Origin: Candidatus Brocadia pituitae
GTDB lineage: Bacteria > Planctomycetota > Brocadiia > Brocadiales > Brocadiaceae
DNA: 64,000 nt
Reading direction: 5' to 3'
Assembly (NCBI GenBank): GCA_017347445.1
Contig: AP021856.1
Coordinates: forward strand, 814,613-878,612
Shown here: piece after piece, positions 6,807 through 44,086 of the stretch
Numbering within the stretch: the stretch's first letter is position 1
Layout: each line of letters begins with the position of its first letter
Translations under genes and position numbers: made by a program
Notes under the pieces: generated by a model
What the model was told of the DNA's origin: nothing
The model's input: the letters and a program-made list of their open reading frames with translations, nothing else
Database searches by the model: none

Positions 6807-7142
6807 TTAATCTCCTTTCAAACATCTAGCCTGAATAATAAATTCCTCCTGATGCCTTTCGGCATCCCAGATCGTCCAAATCGTTTTGTCGTGCTTTAAC
6901 CGTGCCTTCAGGGAAGATCCGTTACTGCAGATCTGAAAAGGAAGCCTCAGCTCGATTGCCTGTACCGGGCATTCCTTCACGCAACAGGCGCATGTCCAGC
7001 AAGCCGACTGATCACGAATTGCTGCCTTCGTGTTTTCTTTGCGGTAGCACAGATCACCCGGGCAGATACGTTCACACCGCGCCTCGGGTAATCCTTTGCA
7101 ACCGTTACAGATGGTTTCGTCAATAAAGATGCTCATGGGCAC
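6807..7142 (-). CDS. aprB: APS reductase beta subunit (ferredoxin-like), short form
   Basis: 111 residues with eight cysteines in two [4Fe-4S] patterns: C12, C15, C23, C27 (split by an insertion as is typical of AprB) and C48-W-T-C51-A-C-C54-V-K-E-C58-P. It passes electrons to the FAD of AprA for reversible reduction of APS to sulfite and AMP in the cytoplasm. Classical sulfate-reducer AprB has about 150-165 residues with a C-terminal tail embracing AprA; most of that tail is missing here. The start overlaps the aprA stop by 10 bp, so the two are probably translationally coupled. A generic 2[4Fe-4S] ferredoxin is the alternative, but the aprA neighbour makes AprB far more likely. Confidence 0.88.
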   Translation of the reverse strand: MPMSIFIDETICNGCKGLPEARCERICPGDLCYRKENTKAAIRDQSACWTCACCVKECPVQAIELRLPFQICSNGSSLKARLKHDKTIWTIWDAERHQEEFIIQARCLKGD

Positions 7143-34179: not shown

Positions 34180-34890
34180 ATGTTTGGTAGTAAGAAAGCT
34201 CTGTGTTTGATGGGTGGCGTGGTGGTGTCCGTATGGAGTCTGGCCGTTTCTCTCCCTTCGATATCCAACGGTGCAGATTATGTTGGCAATAGCGGTTGTA
34301 AGTGTCACATGGGAAAGGGTTGTTTCGAAGGTGAAGAGTATAAAGAAAGATTACATTCAAATACATGGGAAAAAAGGCTGAAGGGAACTCCGGATGCTGA
34401 GAATCCTGATTGCTTGAAATGTCATGCAACTGCATACGGTGAAAAGATCGCTGAGGCTGGCAAGAAATATTTGCCAAATGTGCAATGTGAGGCCTGTCAT
34501 GGCGCTGGTTCTGACTATAAAAAATTAAAGGAGAATTTTCAGGGTAAGGGGAAAGACGCATTTAAAGAGCTATTAAAGAAGGATCCTTTTGAGGCCAGAA
34601 AGGTGCAATACGATGCCGGTTTAATTGTTGCTGGAATTAATGGGCCTGCAACGGTAAAAGAACAATGTTTGAAGTGTCATTGGGAAAGTAAAGATGATAA
34701 GAATAAATGTCCAAAAACCGACAAGGTTATGGATTATAAAGATTATTTCAAGAAGGATGATCATCGTGATGAGGATGAAATTGATGTATTGATTAAAAAG
34801 CTTTCTCCGGAGGATAAGAAGAAGTGGGCAGCTCTTTTACCAAAAGATGAGATTCTTAATACACCATTAAAACCAAAGAAAAAGGAATAA
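34180..34890 (+). CDS. Small periplasmic multihaem cytochrome c (hydrazine synthase electron-transfer module type)
   Basis: 236 residues with a signal peptide (cleavage near SNGAD). Three canonical haem motifs are CLKCH, CEACH and CLKCH. The first site of the cytochrome c554-like family, expected after YVG, reads NSGCKCHMG, a CxCH with one residue fewer. Three ordinary haems and position in front of the hydrazine synthase genes match the trihaem electron-transfer module kuste2854 of Kuenenia (from memory), proposed to deliver electrons for NO reduction. The Lys/Asp-rich C-terminus is highly charged. First gene of an operon with the next two; clear ribosome binding site GGAAAGGAGATC. Confidence 0.8.
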   Translation: MFGSKKALCLMGGVVVSVWSLAVSLPSISNGADYVGNSGCKCHMGKGCFEGEEYKERLHSNTWEKRLKGTPDAENPDCLKCHATAYGEKIAEAGKKYLPNVQCEACHGAGSDYKKLKENFQGKGKDAFKELLKKDPFEARKVQYDAGLIVAGINGPATVKEQCLKCHWESKDDKNKCPKTDKVMDYKDYFKKDDHRDEDEIDVLIKKLSPEDKKKWAALLPKDEILNTPLKPKKKE

Positions 34891-34933
34891 CTCTTTGGGC
34901 TCAAGAGTTATCTCGCTGAGGAGGATTCCGTAG

Positions 34934-35986
34934 ATGGTTTATAAGTCAGAAAAAAGCTTGATAAGGGAAAATTTATCAGGTTTTAAGAAGTTTACGTTGG
35001 GCGCATTTGTTACCTTGAGTGCAGCTATTATTGGCCTGTCGCCTGCAGTTTTAACTGCAGGCGATAATGGCCCATGCATTGAATGCCATACCAAGCCAGA
35101 CAAGCTAAAGACTGCTGAAAAGGCTAAAATCAATCCCGTTACCGGTGAAATTAAGGTGGTTTCGATGGTGATTGACGAAGTAACATTCAAGGCTTCAGCT
35201 CATGGGGGTGAGGATTTCTTTTGTATAGATTGTCATCAGGACCTCGATGGGGTGGATTTGACGGATGGCCACAAGCCAAATCTGAAGCCGGTTGATTGTA
35301 TAACCTTTTGTCATGATGATCCTGCTGATGAATATTTACAAAGCAGTCATGTGAAATTAATGAAGGAAAAAAATAAAGATGTTCCAACGTGCAAAGATTG
35401 TCATGCAGGTGTAACGTACCACTATACTTCGCTTGGAGAAAAATCTCCCCGTGATGTGCCAAGAGGAACAGACCCCCTTCATAGAAAATTAACGATCGAC
35501 TCCTGCGGGGAATGTCATCAGGAGTATCTCGATAGCTACAGAAATAATGCCCATGGTCAGGTTACTGCCCTTGGCCACACAGATACCGATGTCCCTGTGT
35601 GTTTTGATTGTCACGGTAAGCATAAAATTTTAAACTCGGCTGATCCGGAATCAAAAGTTGGAAAAGAGAGGATTTTGGAAACTTGCGGTAGTTGTCATGC
35701 AAATGCCAATGCGAGTTTTGTAAAGCATGTGGAGCACCCGCAGATTAAGAATTTGAATTATTACAAAAAGTTACTTGCGGCAGTTAAAAATGCGCGCAGT
35801 AACCCTGCAGATCTAAAAACACTTCTGAAGAATCCACAGACGATCTTATGTGTTGTATTTGTCATGTATATAGGAATACTAGCGTTTACATTTTCGGCTT
35901 TTGGGCTTCATTCATTGCTAAGTTGGTTTGCAGTTGCACGAGATGAGCTTAAAAGAAAGGGGCATGCAGATGAAGAGCAGCATTAA
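34934..35986 (+). CDS. Membrane-anchored multihaem cytochrome c (seven haem-binding sites)
   Basis: 350 residues. An N-terminal membrane segment (about 19-42), then haem sites CIECH, CIDCH, CITFCH (a CX3CH), CKDCH, CGECH, CFDCH and CGSCH, and a second membrane segment near the C-terminus (ILCVVFVMYIGILAFTFSAF, about 303-325). The final cytoplasmic tail is charged. The soluble cytochrome part would face the anammoxosome lumen or periplasm. It overlaps the cytochrome b gene by 17 bp, so the two likely form a quinol-oxidising membrane complex that feeds the small cytochrome encoded upstream. Ribosome binding site GAGGAGG. Confidence 0.85.
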   Translation: MVYKSEKSLIRENLSGFKKFTLGAFVTLSAAIIGLSPAVLTAGDNGPCIECHTKPDKLKTAEKAKINPVTGEIKVVSMVIDEVTFKASAHGGEDFFCIDCHQDLDGVDLTDGHKPNLKPVDCITFCHDDPADEYLQSSHVKLMKEKNKDVPTCKDCHAGVTYHYTSLGEKSPRDVPRGTDPLHRKLTIDSCGECHQEYLDSYRNNAHGQVTALGHTDTDVPVCFDCHGKHKILNSADPESKVGKERILETCGSCHANANASFVKHVEHPQIKNLNYYKKLLAAVKNARSNPADLKTLLKNPQTILCVVFVMYIGILAFTFSAFGLHSLLSWFAVARDELKRKGHADEEQH

Positions 35987-36815
35987 TTATGTAAGGTTTA
36001 GTCTGTTTCACAGATTTTGCCACTTTTTGATTATAATAAGTTTTTTTGGCCTTGTTTTAACGGGGATGCCTCTGGCGTTTCGCAGTTATGGATGGGCGAG
36101 ATGGCTGTATGAGTTATTCGGTGGGTACCCGACTGCTGGGTTTATTCATCGCATTTGTGCCCTAATAACTTTTTTTGCAGCTTTTATTCATTTCCTCTTC
36201 TTGTTTATTTGTGTTTCTGTGCAAAAAAGGAAAGGATTTTTTTGGGGGCCTGGTTCACTACTTATTCAACCCAGGGATATTTTCGATATCGTGGGTGACA
36301 TTAAATGGTTTCTGGGTATTGGGAAGCGCCCTGACTTTGACCAATGGATTTATTGGGAAAAGTTTGAATATTTATCGCTGATGTGGGGGACTTTGGTAAT
36401 GGCAGTTACCGGGTTAATCCTTTGGTTTCCCGTGCAATTCACAAAAATTATCCCTGTATCTGTTGCTAGTGTTGTTGATCTTCCTGGTATTGCCTTAATT
36501 ATCCATCGATATGAGGCAATTCTCGCTGCTGGTTTTATATTTACCATTCACTTTTTTCACACCCACTTGCTCCCGGAAAAAATGCCGGTTGATGAGGCAA
36601 TTTTCACTGGGAAAATAACCGAGGCAGAATTTCGGCATGAGCGGCTCAATCAGTTTAAAAGGCTAGAAAGTCAGCGGCAATTAGAAAATTATAAAGTTGC
36701 CCCACCATCGTTGTTCGTGAGTTTTTTAACCAGATTGTTTGCTGTTCCCATCTTGATTACCGGGTTACTAATGGTAGGATTCATGTTTTCTGCACTTCTC
36801 GTTTGGGCTATTTGA
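35970..36815 (+). CDS. Cytochrome b (FdnI/formate dehydrogenase gamma-like)
   Basis: About 281 residues with four to five membrane spans. Candidate haem b histidines lie in SLFHRFCHFLIII, FIHRICALITFFAAFIHFL and FIFTIHFFHTHLL, the pattern of di-haem b subunits of formate dehydrogenase/hydrogenase type. It probably oxidises quinol and hands electrons to the multihaem partner. ATG 35970 is preferred because AAAGGGG lies 7 bp upstream; the longer frame from TTG 35928 has no such site. Followed after 80 bp by a sigma-54-type regulator. Confidence 0.82.
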   Translation: MKSSINYVRFSLFHRFCHFLIIISFFGLVLTGMPLAFRSYGWARWLYELFGGYPTAGFIHRICALITFFAAFIHFLFLFICVSVQKRKGFFWGPGSLLIQPRDIFDIVGDIKWFLGIGKRPDFDQWIYWEKFEYLSLMWGTLVMAVTGLILWFPVQFTKIIPVSVASVVDLPGIALIIHRYEAILAAGFIFTIHFFHTHLLPEKMPVDEAIFTGKITEAEFRHERLNQFKRLESQRQLENYKVAPPSLFVSFLTRLFAVPILITGLLMVGFMFSALLVWAI

Positions 36816-36895: not shown

Positions 36896-38287
36896 ATGGT
36901 TTACAGAGTTCTAATTGCAGATGATGAAGAACGTATGCGAAGAGTGCTTGCCATGGTCTTTGAGGATATGGACGATGTTAAGGTGGTTACGAAAAGCTGC
37001 TGTCTGTCAACTTTAGATTGCCTTGAACGCGAGCGCTTCCATCTTCTTATTACCGATTTGAATGTGCAGGAAATGGGAAGACTTGAATTTCTTAAAGCAA
37101 TTAAAGAAAAAGTTCCCGATCTTCCCATTATTGTACTTACTGCATACGGGTCAGTTGGTTCTGCAATAGATGTCATGAAAGAGGGGGTCTTTGATTACCT
37201 TACCACTCCTTTCGAGAAAAGCATTCTTGAATTAGCGGTAAAAAGGGCGCTGAAGATGAGCTCTCTCGCTACCGAAAATAAATATTTGCGTCAGGAACTT
37301 GAGTTACAATACGACTTCAAAAACATCATCGGCAATTCCCCTCAGGTAATCGAAGTATTACGATTAGTTGGAGAGGTATCGAAAACAGATTCAACCGTAC
37401 TGATAACGGGTGAAAGTGGTACGGGGAAAGAATTAATTGCACGTGCCATTCATTTTAATAGCAACAGGGCTTGTGGTCCGCTTATAGTGTTAAACTGTGC
37501 AGCAATTCCTGAAAATTTGTTAGAAAGTGAACTTTTTGGCTATGAACGAGGTGCTTTTACCAATGCAGAAAAAACGAAGAAGGGTCGTTTCGAGTTAGCA
37601 TCTGGCGGTACTTTTTTCATGGATGAAATATCAGAAATGAGCACCGCTGTACAGGCAAAAGTTTTGCGGGTAATTGAGGCCAAAGAGATGGAGCGCCTTG
37701 GTGGTACTGAAACAATTAAGGCGGACAGCAGGATTATTTGTGCAACAAATAAAAACCTTGAGGAGTTGGTAAAAACTGGAAAATTTAGAGAAGATTTATA
37801 TTACAGAATAAGTGTTTTCCCCATTACCTTAATTCCCTTGAGGGAAAGAAAAGAAGATATTATTCCGTTAAGTAAGCACTTTTTAAAGCGTTTTTCGACT
37901 AAGATGGGAAAATCTCCGGTTTCGCTTAGTAAGGAAGCTGAAAAGTTACTTCTCGTGCATAGATGGGAGGGTAATATAAGAGAGTTGCAAAATGTTATTG
38001 AGCGAGCGGTTATCCTTTGTAAAACAAACGTAATCACATCTGAGCATTTACCAGTATCAATTGTTAAAGGCGCTCAGATAAGCAGCAATGAAAAAATACA
38101 ACCGTTAGACAGATTGGTTTCATTTGATATCCCTCCCCATGGTCTATCGTTAGACGATCTAGAGAAGCAGTTAGTTACGCAAGCACTTGAAAAAAGCAAA
38201 AATAATAAGACGAAAGCAGCTAAGTTGTTAGGTCTAACAAGGGGTACTTTTCGGTATCGATTACAAAAGTATGGTTTGGCGAATTGA
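36896..38287 (+). CDS. Sigma-54-dependent response regulator (NtrC family), atypical
   Basis: 463 residues: receiver (1-120), AAA+ sigma-54 activation domain (about 140-375) and a Fis-type HTH at the end (KTKAAKLLGLTRGTFRYRLQ). The receiver keeps D9/D10, the phosphorylation-site D54 and T82, but the normally invariant Lys is Thr (YLTTPF, T104). Walker A is GESGTGKE and Walker B TFFMDEISEM. The sigma-54-contact loop GAFTGA reads GAFTNA. No partner kinase gene is in the window. It lies between the electron-transfer genes and the hydrazine synthase unit, so it may control them, though the promoters I find nearby look like sigma-70 types. Confidence 0.9.
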   Translation: MVYRVLIADDEERMRRVLAMVFEDMDDVKVVTKSCCLSTLDCLERERFHLLITDLNVQEMGRLEFLKAIKEKVPDLPIIVLTAYGSVGSAIDVMKEGVFDYLTTPFEKSILELAVKRALKMSSLATENKYLRQELELQYDFKNIIGNSPQVIEVLRLVGEVSKTDSTVLITGESGTGKELIARAIHFNSNRACGPLIVLNCAAIPENLLESELFGYERGAFTNAEKTKKGRFELASGGTFFMDEISEMSTAVQAKVLRVIEAKEMERLGGTETIKADSRIICATNKNLEELVKTGKFREDLYYRISVFPITLIPLRERKEDIIPLSKHFLKRFSTKMGKSPVSLSKEAEKLLLVHRWEGNIRELQNVIERAVILCKTNVITSEHLPVSIVKGAQISSNEKIQPLDRLVSFDIPPHGLSLDDLEKQLVTQALEKSKNNKTKAAKLLGLTRGTFRYRLQKYGLAN

Positions 38288-38440
38288 TGAATATCAGGCG
38301 TAAATATATTTTCACTAAAATGAGTTAATGGCTGAATATGGCCAAAGTTTACGACGCAATTTGCAAAGATTAAAAGTGCATTTTTTTGTAATATTAGGTG
38401 TATAGGAATGTTAGAGAATTTTTTGTGCAAATATCATTTT

Positions 38441-38449
38441 TGGTATAAT
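38441..38449 (+). promoter_or_regulatory. Extended -10 promoter of the hydrazine synthase unit
   Basis: TGGTATAAT: a perfect TATAAT (38444-38449) with an upstream TG dinucleotide, the extended -10 form. No good -35 (TTTTGT/TTGTGC nearby). Transcription would start near 38456, leaving a leader of about 80 nt that carries GAAAGGGGGTG (38519-38529). Confidence 0.55.
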
Positions 38450-38538
38450 TTATGCTGTATTAACGCCGGGGTAAGTTTTGTGGCTATATTTCAAAAAAGT
38501 ATTAAATGAAAAATTTATGAAAGGGGGTGAGTAGCATT

Positions 38539-39081
38539 ATGAAAAGGACGATTTTTCTTGCAGCAGGTTTAGTGAGTATTTTTGTTTCTTTGAGTCATTC
38601 AGTTTTTGCCGCATGGGATAAACCATGTGATAAGCGACAGATCTTGGAAGCATATTGGTGCGATGCCTGCAAAGATGTTAGGGAGTTTAATGAATGTTCT
38701 GAAATAGGGTATATTTGGGATTTTGCAAAACATCGTGCGGCTGGTGACAAGACTCATACGGATTTGCCTACATGTTGGGCATGTCAGAAAATTGCTTATA
38801 GTTGTGTAAATAACAACTGTAAGAAATATGGCGTGTGTTTGCCAGCTCCTGGTGCCTGTGATGAATGTGGTGACGATATCACAAGCAAAAAAATTTGGTC
38901 AAGGGCGATGTTTAAATGTTCTAAGTGTGGCAAGGAGACCCCTGAGCCAGGAAAAGGATTTACCACGATGAAGGGAAGGTATGCGCCACAAATTGAAAAA
39001 GCCGGGGATTGTGAGACGTGCGGAGTGGCTTTGGAAATAATCTGTACGAAATCAGGCACTTGTCCTCACGTTTCAAAATAG
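38539..39081 (+). CDS. Exported cysteine-rich protein preceding hydrazine synthase
   Basis: 180 residues with a signal peptide (MKRTIFLAAGLVSIFVSLSH, cleaved near FAA). The mature part has 17 cysteines, including five CxxC pairs (CDAC, CWAC, CDEC, CSKC, CETC) and none followed by His, so they are not haem sites; zinc or Fe-S binding or disulfides are possible. ATG 38539 fits the strong site AAGGGGGTG better than GTG 38527. It is the first gene of the hydrazine synthase unit, 53 bp before the beta subunit, and corresponds in position to kuste2858. No function is established to my knowledge; a maturation or metal-delivery role is inference. Confidence 0.8.
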   Translation: MKRTIFLAAGLVSIFVSLSHSVFAAWDKPCDKRQILEAYWCDACKDVREFNECSEIGYIWDFAKHRAAGDKTHTDLPTCWACQKIAYSCVNNNCKKYGVCLPAPGACDECGDDITSKKIWSRAMFKCSKCGKETPEPGKGFTTMKGRYAPQIEKAGDCETCGVALEIICTKSGTCPHVSK

Positions 39082-39134
39082 TTGTGCTTTATTTTGCATG
39101 GTAGGTTAATTGTTTTAGGAGGGAAGGAAGAGCG

Positions 39135-40265
39135 ATGAAAGGAAGAGTATGGCTAGGGGCTGCGGTAGTAGGAGCGGTGCTGTCGGTAGGGGGAGTGTCG
39201 GGCGCTGGATTTATCCAGGGCACGCATGTGAAGACGGATCTGCCTGGTCCGTTTCACATCACGACGTCACCGGATGGAGGTACGTTGTATATATGTAATC
39301 AGTCGGGGCATAGCGTGACGTTTGTGGATGCCCGGACGCAGAAGGTGACGGGTGAGGTGTCGGTAGGAGTGCAGCCTGAGGCATCTGCAATGACACCAGA
39401 CAATGCGTTTTTGTTTGTTTGTAATGCGGAGAGCGACAGTGTGTCGGTGATCGATATAGCGCGCAAGCAGGTAGTCAAGGAGATCAAGGTAGGTGACTGG
39501 CCGAGCGGGATAAGGATCACGAAGGACGGTAGGACGGCATATGTGGCATGTTCTGGGTGCATGTGGAATACGATCGACGTGATAGATACGGGGAAGATGG
39601 AGAAGACGAGGTCGATCTACACGAGTGATTACGGTCCAAGGACATTGGACATATCGCCGGATGGCAAGACGCTTGCGGTGATAAATGACACGGTCGGTTC
39701 GATCAACCGGAGCGTGAACTTTATTGACGTAGATACAGGCAGGGTAACCGAGAAGCGGGTAATTCGTGAGAGTGCGAATTTGAGGGATGTGATATATACG
39801 CCTGATGGGCAGTATGTGGTAGTGACGTATGAGACCCCAAAGAATTGGTTGCCGGTGTGTGAGGCAGAGAACGGGCAGGTATTTACGAACAACATCGCAG
39901 TGTTGGAGACGAAGGCTGGCGGTAAGGTGGCACGGTTGCCGTTAGACGAGCTCAATAACTATGATGGTAATCCGTATGGATTGGCGATGGATCCGAAGGG
40001 GAGGTATTTGTATATTGGAATAAGAGGGATGCATCGGGTAACGATCCTTGACATGGGCAAGGTGCTGAATGTTGTCCGTGGGAACTCACAGTCGGAGCTG
40101 GATTATCTCAGGGATGATCTTGGGTTTGTGAGGGAGTATCTGGTGGCCAGGGTGACTACGGGTCTTGGGCCAAGTTCGGTGTGTTTATCGCCGGATGGCA
40201 AGTATTGTTATGCAGCCAATTACTTTTCCAACAACGTGTCTGTGATAAGGACGCCGGTGGATTAA
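39135..40265 (+). CDS. hzsB: Hydrazine synthase beta subunit (seven-bladed propeller)
   Basis: 376 residues with a signal peptide (cleaved near VSGAG). Repeats of the YVTN type are evident (TLYICNQSGHSVTFVDARTQ, FLFVCNAESDSVSVIDIARK, YCYAANYFSNNVSVI), forming a beta-propeller. No haem motif. In the Kuenenia structure this subunit (kuste2859) packs against the alpha and gamma subunits of the (alpha-beta-gamma)2 complex. Some papers use hzsC for this gene; I follow the subunit letters. The coding sequence is markedly G-rich compared with genes before 39100. Strong site AGGAGGGAAGGAAG before the ATG. Confidence 0.95.
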   Translation: MKGRVWLGAAVVGAVLSVGGVSGAGFIQGTHVKTDLPGPFHITTSPDGGTLYICNQSGHSVTFVDARTQKVTGEVSVGVQPEASAMTPDNAFLFVCNAESDSVSVIDIARKQVVKEIKVGDWPSGIRITKDGRTAYVACSGCMWNTIDVIDTGKMEKTRSIYTSDYGPRTLDISPDGKTLAVINDTVGSINRSVNFIDVDTGRVTEKRVIRESANLRDVIYTPDGQYVVVTYETPKNWLPVCEAENGQVFTNNIAVLETKAGGKVARLPLDELNNYDGNPYGLAMDPKGRYLYIGIRGMHRVTILDMGKVLNVVRGNSQSELDYLRDDLGFVREYLVARVTTGLGPSSVCLSPDGKYCYAANYFSNNVSVIRTPVD

Positions 40266-40349
40266 CGGAGTTGGTGGTGAAGTGAGGTAAGCGTAGGAAA
40301 CGGTAAGAATTCGGAAACAGAGCAATTCATTAAGGAGGAGACAAGAATT

Positions 40350-41375
40350 ATGAGAAGTGGAATAAAAAAGATCGGTTTGGTAGCTGCCCTTGGGTTGTTT
40401 GGGGTAGTGACGACTGGTCAGTTAATGGCGGGGACGCCGCAAGTGGTTGCGACGATCCAGACGGGACCTGAGTGGGAGCCGCTGCCGAGGGCGGAGCCAC
40501 TGACGGTGCCGGAGGTGCATTACCGGGTAAAGCACTCACCGTACAAGAGTGAGTTGGTAAGGTACGGGCAGTTTCAGTTCAATGATGCATCGTGGAATTT
40601 GCAGGGTGAGTATTCCTGCGCGAGCTGTCATTACGAGAGGGGGCAGACAACGGGGTTGATTTGGGACCTTGGAGATGAGGGATGGGGAAGCTGGAAGAAC
40701 ACGAAGTATATCCGAGGCGGGAGGTATTTGCCGCCGTTCAGGCATGAGGGGTTTACCGGCCATCCGGATGAGATAGTAGGAGCAACGAGTTCATTGGACA
40801 GGGTGTGCGGAAGAGACCCTGGGTTTGTGTTCCGGAGTGAGAACTTTTCTCCGTTGAGGTTAGAGGCGCTGATCTGCTACATCAGGGCATTGGAGTTCAC
40901 GGGAAGTCCGTTCAGGAATGCGGATGGTTCGCTGTCGGATGCGCAGAAGAGGGGCGAGAAGATATTCAATGATCCGAATGTTGGATGTGCGGAGTGCCAT
41001 CCTGGTGATGTGAGTGATCCGAAGGCGCTGTTTAGCGATGCGCAGACCCATGACGTAGGGACGGGCCGTGTAGGGGTGAAGGGTTTCCGTTCAACGCCGG
41101 GGAAGGTGTTTAATCTGAAGGCGCTGGAGGCTGGTGAGGATCCATATGGTGAGGAGAGTGACACGCCGATCATTGGGTTGGACCTGGTGAAGGAGTTTGA
41201 CACGCCGACCTTGAGGGACATCTATGCATCGGGGACGTATTTCCATGACGGGAGCGCCAGGCTGTTGATAGACACGATCAACAACACGGTGAATGACAAG
41301 GACATGCATGGAAGGACGTCGCATTTGACAGCACAGGAGATGCAGGACCTGGTTGAGTTCCTGAAGGCATTATAA
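40350..41375 (+). CDS. hzsC: Hydrazine synthase gamma subunit (dihaem, cytochrome c peroxidase-like)
   Basis: 341 residues with a signal peptide (cleaved near LMAGT). Two haem c sites, CASCHYERG and CAECHPGD, in a fold related to dihaem cytochrome c peroxidase/MauG; FDTPTLRDIYASGTYFHDGS is the typical peroxidase-family stretch. In the published mechanism this subunit reduces NO by three electrons to hydroxylamine, which then passes through a tunnel to the alpha subunit. Corresponds to kuste2860. It is separate from the beta subunit (85-bp gap), unlike anammox lineages with a fused gene. G-rich codon use as in hzsB. Confidence 0.95.
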   Translation: MRSGIKKIGLVAALGLFGVVTTGQLMAGTPQVVATIQTGPEWEPLPRAEPLTVPEVHYRVKHSPYKSELVRYGQFQFNDASWNLQGEYSCASCHYERGQTTGLIWDLGDEGWGSWKNTKYIRGGRYLPPFRHEGFTGHPDEIVGATSSLDRVCGRDPGFVFRSENFSPLRLEALICYIRALEFTGSPFRNADGSLSDAQKRGEKIFNDPNVGCAECHPGDVSDPKALFSDAQTHDVGTGRVGVKGFRSTPGKVFNLKALEAGEDPYGEESDTPIIGLDLVKEFDTPTLRDIYASGTYFHDGSARLLIDTINNTVNDKDMHGRTSHLTAQEMQDLVEFLKAL

Positions 41376-41467
41376 GGGATAAAAGAGGGGCAGTTGGTAC
41401 GTTTGCCCGTTGAAACTGAAGAATATTTGTGAGTATTACGAAAACAGTGAAAGGAGAAGGCCAACAG

Positions 41468-43900
41468 ATGAGTAAGAGGAAAATAGGAGGAGTGGTTGCG
41501 TCTGCGATCATGGCAGGAGCGTTGGTCTGTGGGAGCGTCTTTGCATCGGGCAACCAGGTAATGGTAGGTGGTTCGAAGCAGGGAAAGGCCTTATGGACTG
41601 ATTATAGCGGGATGTCGAAGGAAGTGCAGGGTCCGGTGGATGCGCTGTTGTTCACGCAGTCACCGAGGACGGCGAAGGGCGATCCGTATCAGAATTATCC
41701 GCACTATGTGTCAGAGGGTAGCCGGATCGTGTTGTACAATTTAAATACGAAGGAATTGAAGGTGTTGACGAATGATTTTGCGACGGCCTTTGATCCTTGC
41801 ACGTATTGGGACGGTAAGAAGTTTGCGTTTGCTGGAGTACACAAGAAGGGCGGCGGATGCCAGATATGGGAGATGAACATAGACGGCAGTGGTCTGAGGC
41901 AGATGACTGATTATAAGGGGACATGCCGGTCGCCGATCTATTATGCAGCAGGCAGTATTGAGGAAGGACAGGGTCGCATCATATGGCGTGACCGGTATTT
42001 TGAAGGAGACTGGAAGGAACGTGGCACGGTAGAGAAGACCGGGTTCATCATCTTTGCTGGTTCTCCGGACGGCGTCATGGATGAGCTTCATAATCCGTAT
42101 GCGTATAACCTGTTCAGGTTGGATACCCAGGGCGGTCACGTGACGGAGAGAATTACGGGTCATGTGCTGTCGGGTATAGAGTTTCCGAGCATAAACACGA
42201 CGATAGACCAGATTACCTACAACATCAGTTCCAACTTTGATCCGACGACGACGCCGGATGGGAACATCCTGTTCTCCAGCACGCAGGCCAATGGCAGCAG
42301 GGCAGGCGGAAAGGGCAGGGTAATGCTGTGTGTGGATAACTGGGACGGTGCGTATCCGAGACCGATCTATGGAAACTGTGATGATGAGATTGGCGGTGCA
42401 TGTGGCAAGTCACAGGCCAAGATCACGTTTGGAGAAAGGAAGCTGGTGTATGTAGAGTCTCCGTATATGAATTGGGGAGTAGGTCAGCTGGCATCAGTCA
42501 GTTGGGATGCGCCGTATAACAAGACCTATGAGAGACTGACGAAGGATGATGGTGGATTGTACCGGAGTCCGTATCCGCTTCCGGACGACAGGATGTTGGT
42601 GTCGTATGCGGAGCGTGGTGATTTTGGGATTTATTGGTTTGATTGCAAGAATGGTAAGGCAGGGGAATTGGTGCACAATGATCCTGAGTGGAACGATCAT
42701 CAGCCGGCGCCGATTTATGTGAAGTACAAGCCGAGGTGGATAAACACCTTTACGGCGGGAAAGAACTTTGGGGTAACGACGGTGACGTATCAGCCGTTTG
42801 ATCAGGTGAAGGTGGAAGGGTATCCGCATTCGTGGGCTACGTGGATTTGTTTTGACACGACGCTGACGGATCTTCCGGTAGGACCGTATCCGCATCAGAA
42901 GGCGAAGGATACGAAGCGTGGTGATGTGAAGGCGGTAAGAATTGTGCAGGGAGTGCAGGCGGTAGAGCCGGATGCATCCCGGTTTAAGGTTGGTGCAGGC
43001 AGTCATCTTTTGGGTGGATGCCGGTCGAGCAGTAACTCAGGAACGGCGTTCCAGCAGAGGCGGATCATCGGTTATCAGTATGTGGAGGATGATGGTTCTG
43101 TGGTAACGTCTCAGACGGCAGACACGTCATACTACATCCAGAACCTTGATGAGAGGGGAATGGCAGTGCAGACAGCGCTGACATGGGCGTATTTAAGGCC
43201 GTATCATGGCAGGATATGCAGTGGATGTCATGATGGGTCATACCGTGGCAGGGCATTCCAGAATCAGCATACGAAGGCGTTGTACAATTGGTGGTATGAT
43301 GACCGGAGTCACTATGATTCACCTTTTGCGTTTGGATACCTGAAGTTTGACAGGAGTGGTATCTATCAGGGGGTAAAGCATGGGGATGACGTGGTGGTGC
43401 CTTCGGACGTGTATTATGGAGGTCCGTCAGGAACGACGTCTCAGCCGGTGGAAGGTTTAACGGATGAGAAGAGGAGGACGGTGGATTTCCGCAGGGATCT
43501 TCAGCCGATCATCGATGTGAAGTGTGCAAGCTGCCATAATGCAGGCAGTCCGCTGGACTTATCGGGTGGAGCGGAGTTAGTGGGTGTGGATGGAGTGTCG
43601 GCATTCAGCCGTGCATACAACAGTTTACTTGCGCCGCAGAGGGGCAAGGACACGAATCTTGGAGGGAAGTATGTTAATCCTTCCTCTGCCATCAACAGCT
43701 TGTTAATCTGGAGGCTGTATGAGACGGCATTGAGTCAGTTTAGTCCGAGAGACGGTGTATTCCCGGTTGAGGGAAGGGTAATGCATGACAAGTTCCTCAC
43801 GCAGGACGAGAGGTATTTGTTTGTCGAGTGGATTGATATTGGTGCACAGTGGGATAACATCCAGGGTCCTGATTTGTATCCGGGGTATCAAGCAAGATAA
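41468..43900 (+). CDS. hzsA: Hydrazine synthase alpha subunit (dihaem catalytic subunit)
   Basis: 810 residues from ATG 41468, chosen because AAAGGAGAAGG precedes it and the length equals the known protein within one residue; the longer GTG frame from 41429 is unlikely. Signal peptide cleaved near FASG. The active-site haem motif is C584-S-G-C587-H-D-G-S-Y592: in the Kuenenia structure the equivalent tyrosine ligates the catalytic haem. The second haem site is C686-A-S-C-H. This subunit condenses hydroxylamine with ammonia to hydrazine. Equivalent to kuste2861. A terminator hairpin follows at 43969. Same G-rich codon use as the other two genes. Confidence 0.96.
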   Translation: MSKRKIGGVVASAIMAGALVCGSVFASGNQVMVGGSKQGKALWTDYSGMSKEVQGPVDALLFTQSPRTAKGDPYQNYPHYVSEGSRIVLYNLNTKELKVLTNDFATAFDPCTYWDGKKFAFAGVHKKGGGCQIWEMNIDGSGLRQMTDYKGTCRSPIYYAAGSIEEGQGRIIWRDRYFEGDWKERGTVEKTGFIIFAGSPDGVMDELHNPYAYNLFRLDTQGGHVTERITGHVLSGIEFPSINTTIDQITYNISSNFDPTTTPDGNILFSSTQANGSRAGGKGRVMLCVDNWDGAYPRPIYGNCDDEIGGACGKSQAKITFGERKLVYVESPYMNWGVGQLASVSWDAPYNKTYERLTKDDGGLYRSPYPLPDDRMLVSYAERGDFGIYWFDCKNGKAGELVHNDPEWNDHQPAPIYVKYKPRWINTFTAGKNFGVTTVTYQPFDQVKVEGYPHSWATWICFDTTLTDLPVGPYPHQKAKDTKRGDVKAVRIVQGVQAVEPDASRFKVGAGSHLLGGCRSSSNSGTAFQQRRIIGYQYVEDDGSVVTSQTADTSYYIQNLDERGMAVQTALTWAYLRPYHGRICSGCHDGSYRGRAFQNQHTKALYNWWYDDRSHYDSPFAFGYLKFDRSGIYQGVKHGDDVVVPSDVYYGGPSGTTSQPVEGLTDEKRRTVDFRRDLQPIIDVKCASCHNAGSPLDLSGGAELVGVDGVSAFSRAYNSLLAPQRGKDTNLGGKYVNPSSAINSLLIWRLYETALSQFSPRDGVFPVEGRVMHDKFLTQDERYLFVEWIDIGAQWDNIQGPDLYPGYQAR

Positions 43901-43968
43901 TACCGGAGCGAAGACCCTGAGCCGGTTGTGTCAGGGTGAAAAACTCAGGAACACGGAAGGGTAACTAT

Positions 43969-44013
43969 GAAGAGCTGGGTTCGGTGGGGTATACCCCCGC
44001 TGCCCAGCTCTTC
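43969..44013 (+). terminator. Terminator-like hairpin after hzsA
   Basis: An 11-bp perfect stem GAAGAGCTGGG/CCCAGCTCTTC, extended by GGGG/CCCC in the loop, followed by GTGTTTGATATTTT. It lies 69 bp after the stop codon. Confidence 0.7.
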
Positions 44014-44086
44014 GTGTTTGATATTTTGAGGGCTAAAATTACAGAATTTTTGGTGCTTTTTCATGCAAATATGCATAAAAATCTCC

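Follow-up and report, generated by a model that had tools for sequence, protein, structure and literature searches.

Genes and features of the hydrazine synthase locus

The window, a stretch of 64,000 nucleotides from the closed 4.08 Mb genome of Candidatus Brocadia pituitae, carries the genes of hydrazine synthase (HZS) in the order hzsB-hzsC-hzsA, preceded by a small gene for a cysteine-rich protein. The following features were found, all of them on the plus strand:

34180..36815, plus strand: multihaem cytochromes and a cytochrome b561-like membrane protein, orthologues of kuste2854-2856 and conserved upstream neighbours
36896..38287, plus strand: sigma-54 dependent response regulator, kuste2857 orthologue and likely operon activator (Response_reg, Sigma54_activat and HTH_8 domains)
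38328..38345, plus strand: candidate enhancer palindrome ATGGCTGAATATGGCCAA for the sigma-54 activator (11 of 14 matches to TTGGCTG-N4-CAGCCAA)
38441..38455, plus strand: sigma-54 type -24/-12 element TGGTATAATTTATGC (TGG-N9-TGC)
38522..38529, plus strand: ribosome-binding site GGGGGTGA, read from the sequence; most orthologues have a similar one
38539..39081, plus strand: kuste2858-family gene for an exported 17-cysteine protein, predicted to be a multi-zinc-ribbon protein (sequence, alignment and models)
39135..40265, plus strand: hzsB, HZS beta subunit (NF052340, 756 bits)
40350..41375, plus strand: hzsC, HZS gamma subunit (NF052341, 735 bits)
41471..43900, plus strand: hzsA, HZS alpha subunit (NF052339, 1579 bits)
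39115..44023, plus strand: hzsBCA unit with a second copy elsewhere in the genome (99.9% identity over 4909 bp)

The three hzs scores are all far over the NCBIfam cut-offs. The small gene starts with the ATG at 38539 and its stop codon ends at 39081, giving a product of 180 amino acids with a Sec-type signal peptide MKRTIFLAAGLVSIFVSLSHSVFA at its N-terminus. There are 17 cysteines (positions 30, 41, 44, 53, 79, 82, 89, 94, 100, 107, 110, 127, 130, 158, 161, 169 and 175), five CxxC pairs (CDAC, CWAC, CDEC, CSKC and CETC) and four histidines. The 180 residues contain no CxxCH haem motif, which sets the protein apart from c-type cytochromes. The original prediction of an exported 17-cysteine protein with five CxxC pairs that are not haem sites is thus confirmed. 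The reading frame is not a product of chance, since 51 distinct homologues align with it and 12 cysteines and H177 are invariant among them. Full-length homology, the 12 invariant cysteines, the C-terminal CPH and the position directly before hzsB place the gene in the kuste2858 family.

The gene order of the window matches the kuste2854-2861 cluster of Candidatus Kuenenia stuttgartiensis, and by position and family the gene is the orthologue of kuste2858 (KsCSTR_28180). There too the gene has the sigma-54 regulator kuste2857 on one side and the hzs genes (kuste2859-2861) on the other; Kuenenia-type genomes have the orthologue in this position, and nothing essential sets the two genes apart. 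The locus had been taken as undescribed, which does not hold: kuste2858 has been listed as 'Unknown protein' (PMC6423088) and as 'uncharacterized' (PMC12053348). That it has no described function does hold, as both publications name it only as unknown, uncharacterized or hypothetical (PMC6423088, PMC12053348).

The hzsBCA unit is duplicated. The second copy is at G000:C1 3028749-3031166 (locus L093); the sigma-54 regulator upstream of it is another one, and a kuste2858-type gene is missing. The same arrangement was seen at the second hzsBCA of five related genomes (G003, G004, G018, G021 and G022). The duplicated stretch starts 34 nt past the stop codon of the kuste2858-type gene, which therefore lies outside it, and a profile search found no paralogue of the protein in the source genome. 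A published Kuenenia genome has two complete hzs clusters and a third hzsB/hzsC (PMC12607021). On these comparisons the gene is present once per genome and not once per hzs operon, so a product that serves both copies would have to act in trans. Among related genomes the HAO-trpBA downstream flank adjoins one hzsBCA copy in some and the second in others, a pattern suggestive of recombination or inversion between the two. Elsewhere in the window, the minus strand of 6810-7136 holds a 109-amino-acid ORF with 12 cysteines that, judged by their spacing, is probably ferredoxin-like.

A putative sigma-54 operon

The stop codon of the kuste2858-type gene is separated from hzsB by 53 bp, and no terminator-like site was found in this gap. 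Among the loci that keep the regulator gene, 38 of 40 carry TGG-N9-TGC at 65-103 bp upstream of the kuste2858-type gene; shuffles over the same 40 loci gave a mean of 1.9 and a maximum of 6, figures that overstate the evidence because orthologous loci are not independent. Its varying distance and its diverged surroundings nevertheless speak for an element that has been kept. It was present at one of nine loci in the f2 and f5 families, which have no regulator gene there, and at none of the four sites between tandem copies of the kuste2858-type gene. The best match to the TTGGCTG-N4-CAGCCAA palindrome falls at -177 to -215 in most Brocadiaceae and many Scalinduaceae loci, and in most loci this is about 100-120 bp upstream of the -24/-12 element. 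Palindrome scores at single loci often do not exceed those of shuffles, and the case for this site rests on its constant position. Regulator gene, candidate palindrome and -24/-12 element are absent together in the f2 and f5 families. All 38 good genomes have an rpoN gene. Of the six second hzsBCA copies tested, four have their own TGG-N9-TGC, placed at -212 to -261 relative to hzsB; that of the window genome has a near match starting with CGG.

The simplest reading is a single sigma-54 operon with the kuste2858-type gene first, followed by hzsBCA, so that hydrazine synthase itself is predicted to be under sigma-54 control. Co-transcription, which the original prediction had stated as such, is likely because the regulator-keeping loci share the upstream element; the short gap and the lack of a terminator-like site agree with it, and the claim now stands with this support as a probable one. 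Published expression data show that kuste2858 is downregulated together with the hzs genes under hydrazine (PMC12053348). This co-regulation and the adjacent regulator gene would also fit a sensor for NO, hydrazine or metals in the anammoxosome lumen that feeds back on the sigma-54 regulator. However, the f2 and f5 families keep the gene at loci that have no regulator gene, and no transmembrane link was seen, which leaves the sensor very improbable.

Distribution in anammox bacteria and relatives in other Planctomycetota

Of 62 Brocadiales genomes, 49 encode a kuste2858-type protein, and all five families sampled are represented among these. Wherever the contig continues, the next gene is hzsB or an hzsBC fusion, and all five families keep this place, even where the regulator gene has been lost or the locus rearranged. 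The predicted linkage to hzsBCA therefore holds in five of five families. Where a genome has the gene and no visible hzs genes, the contig stops in or just before hzsB, as is expected because hzsBCA is a repeat. Among the 13 genomes apparently without the gene, those with hzs sequence are mostly cut inside or before hzsB. Absences from genomes that bear hzsA fall in fragmented assemblies. G014 (99% complete) is a case apart, with hzsA and no detectable kuste2858-type copy; its hzs contig is without hzsB too. At this locus (L098, G014:C179) hzsC and hzsA have no hzsB before them and a permease-like gene lies upstream, so it may be either a recombinant copy or a misassembly. In one Scalinduaceae contig (L063 7104-11849, G046:C26), hzsB, hzsC and hzsA are split into many frames, through either decay or assembly errors.

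Homologues outside anammox bacteria were also searched for. With the 180-residue protein as query, 36 genomes outside Brocadiales gave nothing convincing (best E 0.0025), and in a single-motif scan of 84,980 species, which made up the search beyond Planctomycetota, all 33 loci look like Brocadiales. The family profile matched 5 of 356 other Planctomycetota genomes, and 15 of the 356 (about 4%) once it was widened with the first five. These relatives (L136-L141 and L188-L206) have in common an export signal, many cysteines and an ending of the form C-x3-SG-x2-PH. They share C30, C41, C44, C53, C82, C89, C107, C127, C169, G173, P176 and H177, all of which are present in the window protein; in the wider set C41, C82 and C127 are invariant and the other positions near-invariant. 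No Pfam or NCBIfam model covers this superfamily. Copies occur in tandem, with three in L137, and fusions to other domains were seen in L189 and L204, the latter with a DUF6288/squalene-cyclase-like part. The relatives outside anammox have no common neighbour, no hydrazine synthase genes nearby in the stretches read and no linkage to cytochromes. In these searches, the close HZS-linked subfamily appears confined to Brocadiales and anammox, and the distant superfamily occurs sporadically in other Planctomycetota; the expected restriction to anammox bacteria thus applies to the former and not to the latter. Homologues outside anammox, which the original prediction had named as a finding against it, accordingly exist in a weak form only.

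The middle domain of HZS alpha (PF18582) is found in many large proteins of other Planctomycetota (e.g. in G110, G213 and G333), and some of these genomes have 12 or more matches. No relative of the cysteine-rich protein was seen in the short flanks of a set of loci with HZS_alpha domains, which come mostly from other Planctomycetota.

Since the non-anammox relatives have no HZS partner, the fold is not itself a fold for HZS assembly. The wider family, sporadic, multi-copy, partner-free and fused to other domains, would suit a protein that buffers metals in general, or an extracytoplasmic zinc protein, co-regulated with HZS and making no contact with it. We regard this as unlikely, as it does not account for the strict place before hzsB in the five families despite regulator loss and rearrangement.

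Cysteine chemistry and a possible role in HZS assembly

The model of the window protein was of moderate quality (pLDDT 78) and matched local zinc ribbons only, with Foldseek E values of 1.2 and worse and Z below 5. A model of a distant relative, built from a broader alignment, reached a pLDDT of 84.7. Its middle part superposed on the heavy-metal-binding domain (HMBD) of LpCopA (PDB 8ovl), with 29 residues aligned at an rmsd of 0.9 A (Foldseek probability 1.00, E 0.2, Z 2.2). Its N-terminal part matched the zinc-knuckle region of methionyl-tRNA synthetase, with 35-37 residues at 0.8-1.0 A (Z about 2). Such folds are short and common, the Z scores all lie below 5, and the matches do not establish a function. 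The distant relative also shares the Y-x-C-x2-HP ... AG-x-C-x2-C pattern of the HMBD, whereas the window protein is without the C-x2-H-P part. Against the HMBD profile (PF19335, cut-off 23.6 bits) the window protein gave no match and the best relative 21.5 bits. Zinc-ribbon profiles (PF21344, PF12760 and PF07191 tested) likewise stayed below the curated cut-offs, both for the relatives and for the window protein (15.8 of 27 and 14.8 of 25.4 bits). No PDB entry was found by sequence (best E 1.3), and a match to the Penaeidin profile was rejected as most likely an artefact of cysteine spacing. The protein is like known zinc ribbons and knuckles (Zn_ribbon_LysW PF21344, Zn_ribbon_6 PF07191, methionyl-tRNA synthetase) in its CxxC pairs on beta hairpins, but differs in being exported, in having at least three modules in a row and in the extra invariant C30, C82, C169 and H177.

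Substitutions among the homologues bear on what the cysteines do. C161 is replaced by Asp in four Brocadiales sequences and by His in one relative outside, C110 by Asp or Gly in three Brocadiales sequences, and in each of the seven f2 sequences a stretch containing GH stands in place of C130; none of these replacements is coupled to loss of the partner cysteine. Metal ligands are therefore favoured over disulfides. Alignment and models together strongly suggest a tandem array of zinc-ribbon-like modules, with cysteines as ligands of a metal, most probably zinc, and not of haem.

The original prediction offered a dedicated maturation or redox factor, possibly one for the unusual haem ligation of the enzyme. 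In such a role the CxxC pairs would keep cysteines of HzsA or HzsC reduced, or would help to form the third cysteine bond of haem gamma-I, which is bound by three cysteines (PMC12607021), and the operon position and the five CxxC pairs are in keeping with this. The CxxC positions 110, 130 and 161, however, are changed to Asp, His or Gly in whole families, and the beta-rich models look zinc-ribbon-like with no thioredoxin-fold match among those listed, an absence that need not mean that the fold is missing. With the non-anammox relatives not lying beside cytochromes either, a thiol-redox or haem-attachment factor is improbable. The redox half of the prediction is thus disfavoured by models and substitutions that point to zinc ribbons, and haem ligation has no support beyond position; the maturation half survives as the best reading, and haem-specific or redox roles are less likely than a role in assembly. 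Paired CxxC knuckles also resemble rubredoxin sites, and a rubredoxin-like electron carrier to HZS might be imagined. The Rubredoxin-like profile NF045720 gives only 11.9 bits against a cut-off of 45, knuckle cysteines are replaced by Asp or His, and electron exchange with HZS is already a role of Kuste2854, a multihaem cytochrome from this gene cluster (PMC8388095), so that such a carrier has very little probability.

Three kinds of subunit, alpha, beta and gamma, make up the published HZS (PMC12607021, PMC12758564). Label-free values for kuste2858 were 144,710 and 178,908 against 27.0 and 36.9 million for HzsA, or about 0.5%, and the protein was undetected in one of three reactors (PMC6423088); a low label-free signal may also come from a small protein with few peptides. 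These figures make a stoichiometric subunit unlikely. A structural subunit or linker, bound loosely to HZS in the anammoxosome and lost during purification, would share operon and export signal with the enzyme; against the same abundance and a single gene copy beside two or three hzs copies, we consider it quite improbable.

Operon position, low abundance and absence from the mature enzyme mark the small secreted assembly factors whose genes accompany those of complex metalloenzymes. The kuste2858-type protein is like them in the first two and, going by the published subunit composition, in the third, and no sequence relation was found between its family and any described assembly factor. An exported zinc-ribbon protein that is made with HZS, scarce, and encoded once for two operons fits best with an assembly factor acting in trans. 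We tentatively propose, with a confidence not quite reaching even, that it is an exported, sub-stoichiometric zinc-ribbon accessory factor of HZS; against this stand profile matches that are all below cut-offs, structural Z scores under 5, relatives outside anammox that have no HZS partner, and G014 with its hzsA and no copy found. That it acts on HZS at all is judged somewhat less than evenly probable. In the proposed sequence of events, the gene would be transcribed from the sigma-54 element together with hzsBCA, and Sec export would take the protein to the anammoxosome or periplasm. There, small amounts may act on the HZS polypeptides that the two identical hzsBCA copies encode, keeping them, or their metal and haem sites, competent for assembly, and the mature alpha-beta-gamma enzyme would then release the factor.

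Two concrete options are aid to beta-gamma pairing and aid to the zinc of the alpha subunit, which sits on His587 of a CxxCH motif (PMC12607021). The Scalinduaceae bear on the first. In this family the gene is duplicated into types a and b, of which b adjoins hzsB. Genomes with separate hzsB and hzsC (G044, G046, G048, G054, G055 and G061) have b, with or without a, and those with fused hzsBC (G041, G052, G053, G057 and G060) have type a only. The pattern, seen in one clade and probably the outcome of one event, hints that b would help beta and gamma to pair where they are made as separate chains.

Hydrazine synthase defines anammox. It has one haem that is linked, unusually, to zinc and one that is held by three attachments, and to our knowledge its route of assembly is not known. 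A more specific proposal, which we hold as doubtful, is that the protein is a dedicated HZS assembly factor from an undescribed exported zinc-ribbon superfamily of Planctomycetota, giving zinc to the alpha subunit or pairing beta and gamma, and needed for active enzyme outside anammox bacteria. The conserved, putative accessory protein is a concrete candidate to add when HZS is made in another host, and the locus also offers a candidate regulator, together with a putative promoter, through which the anammox pathway might be controlled.
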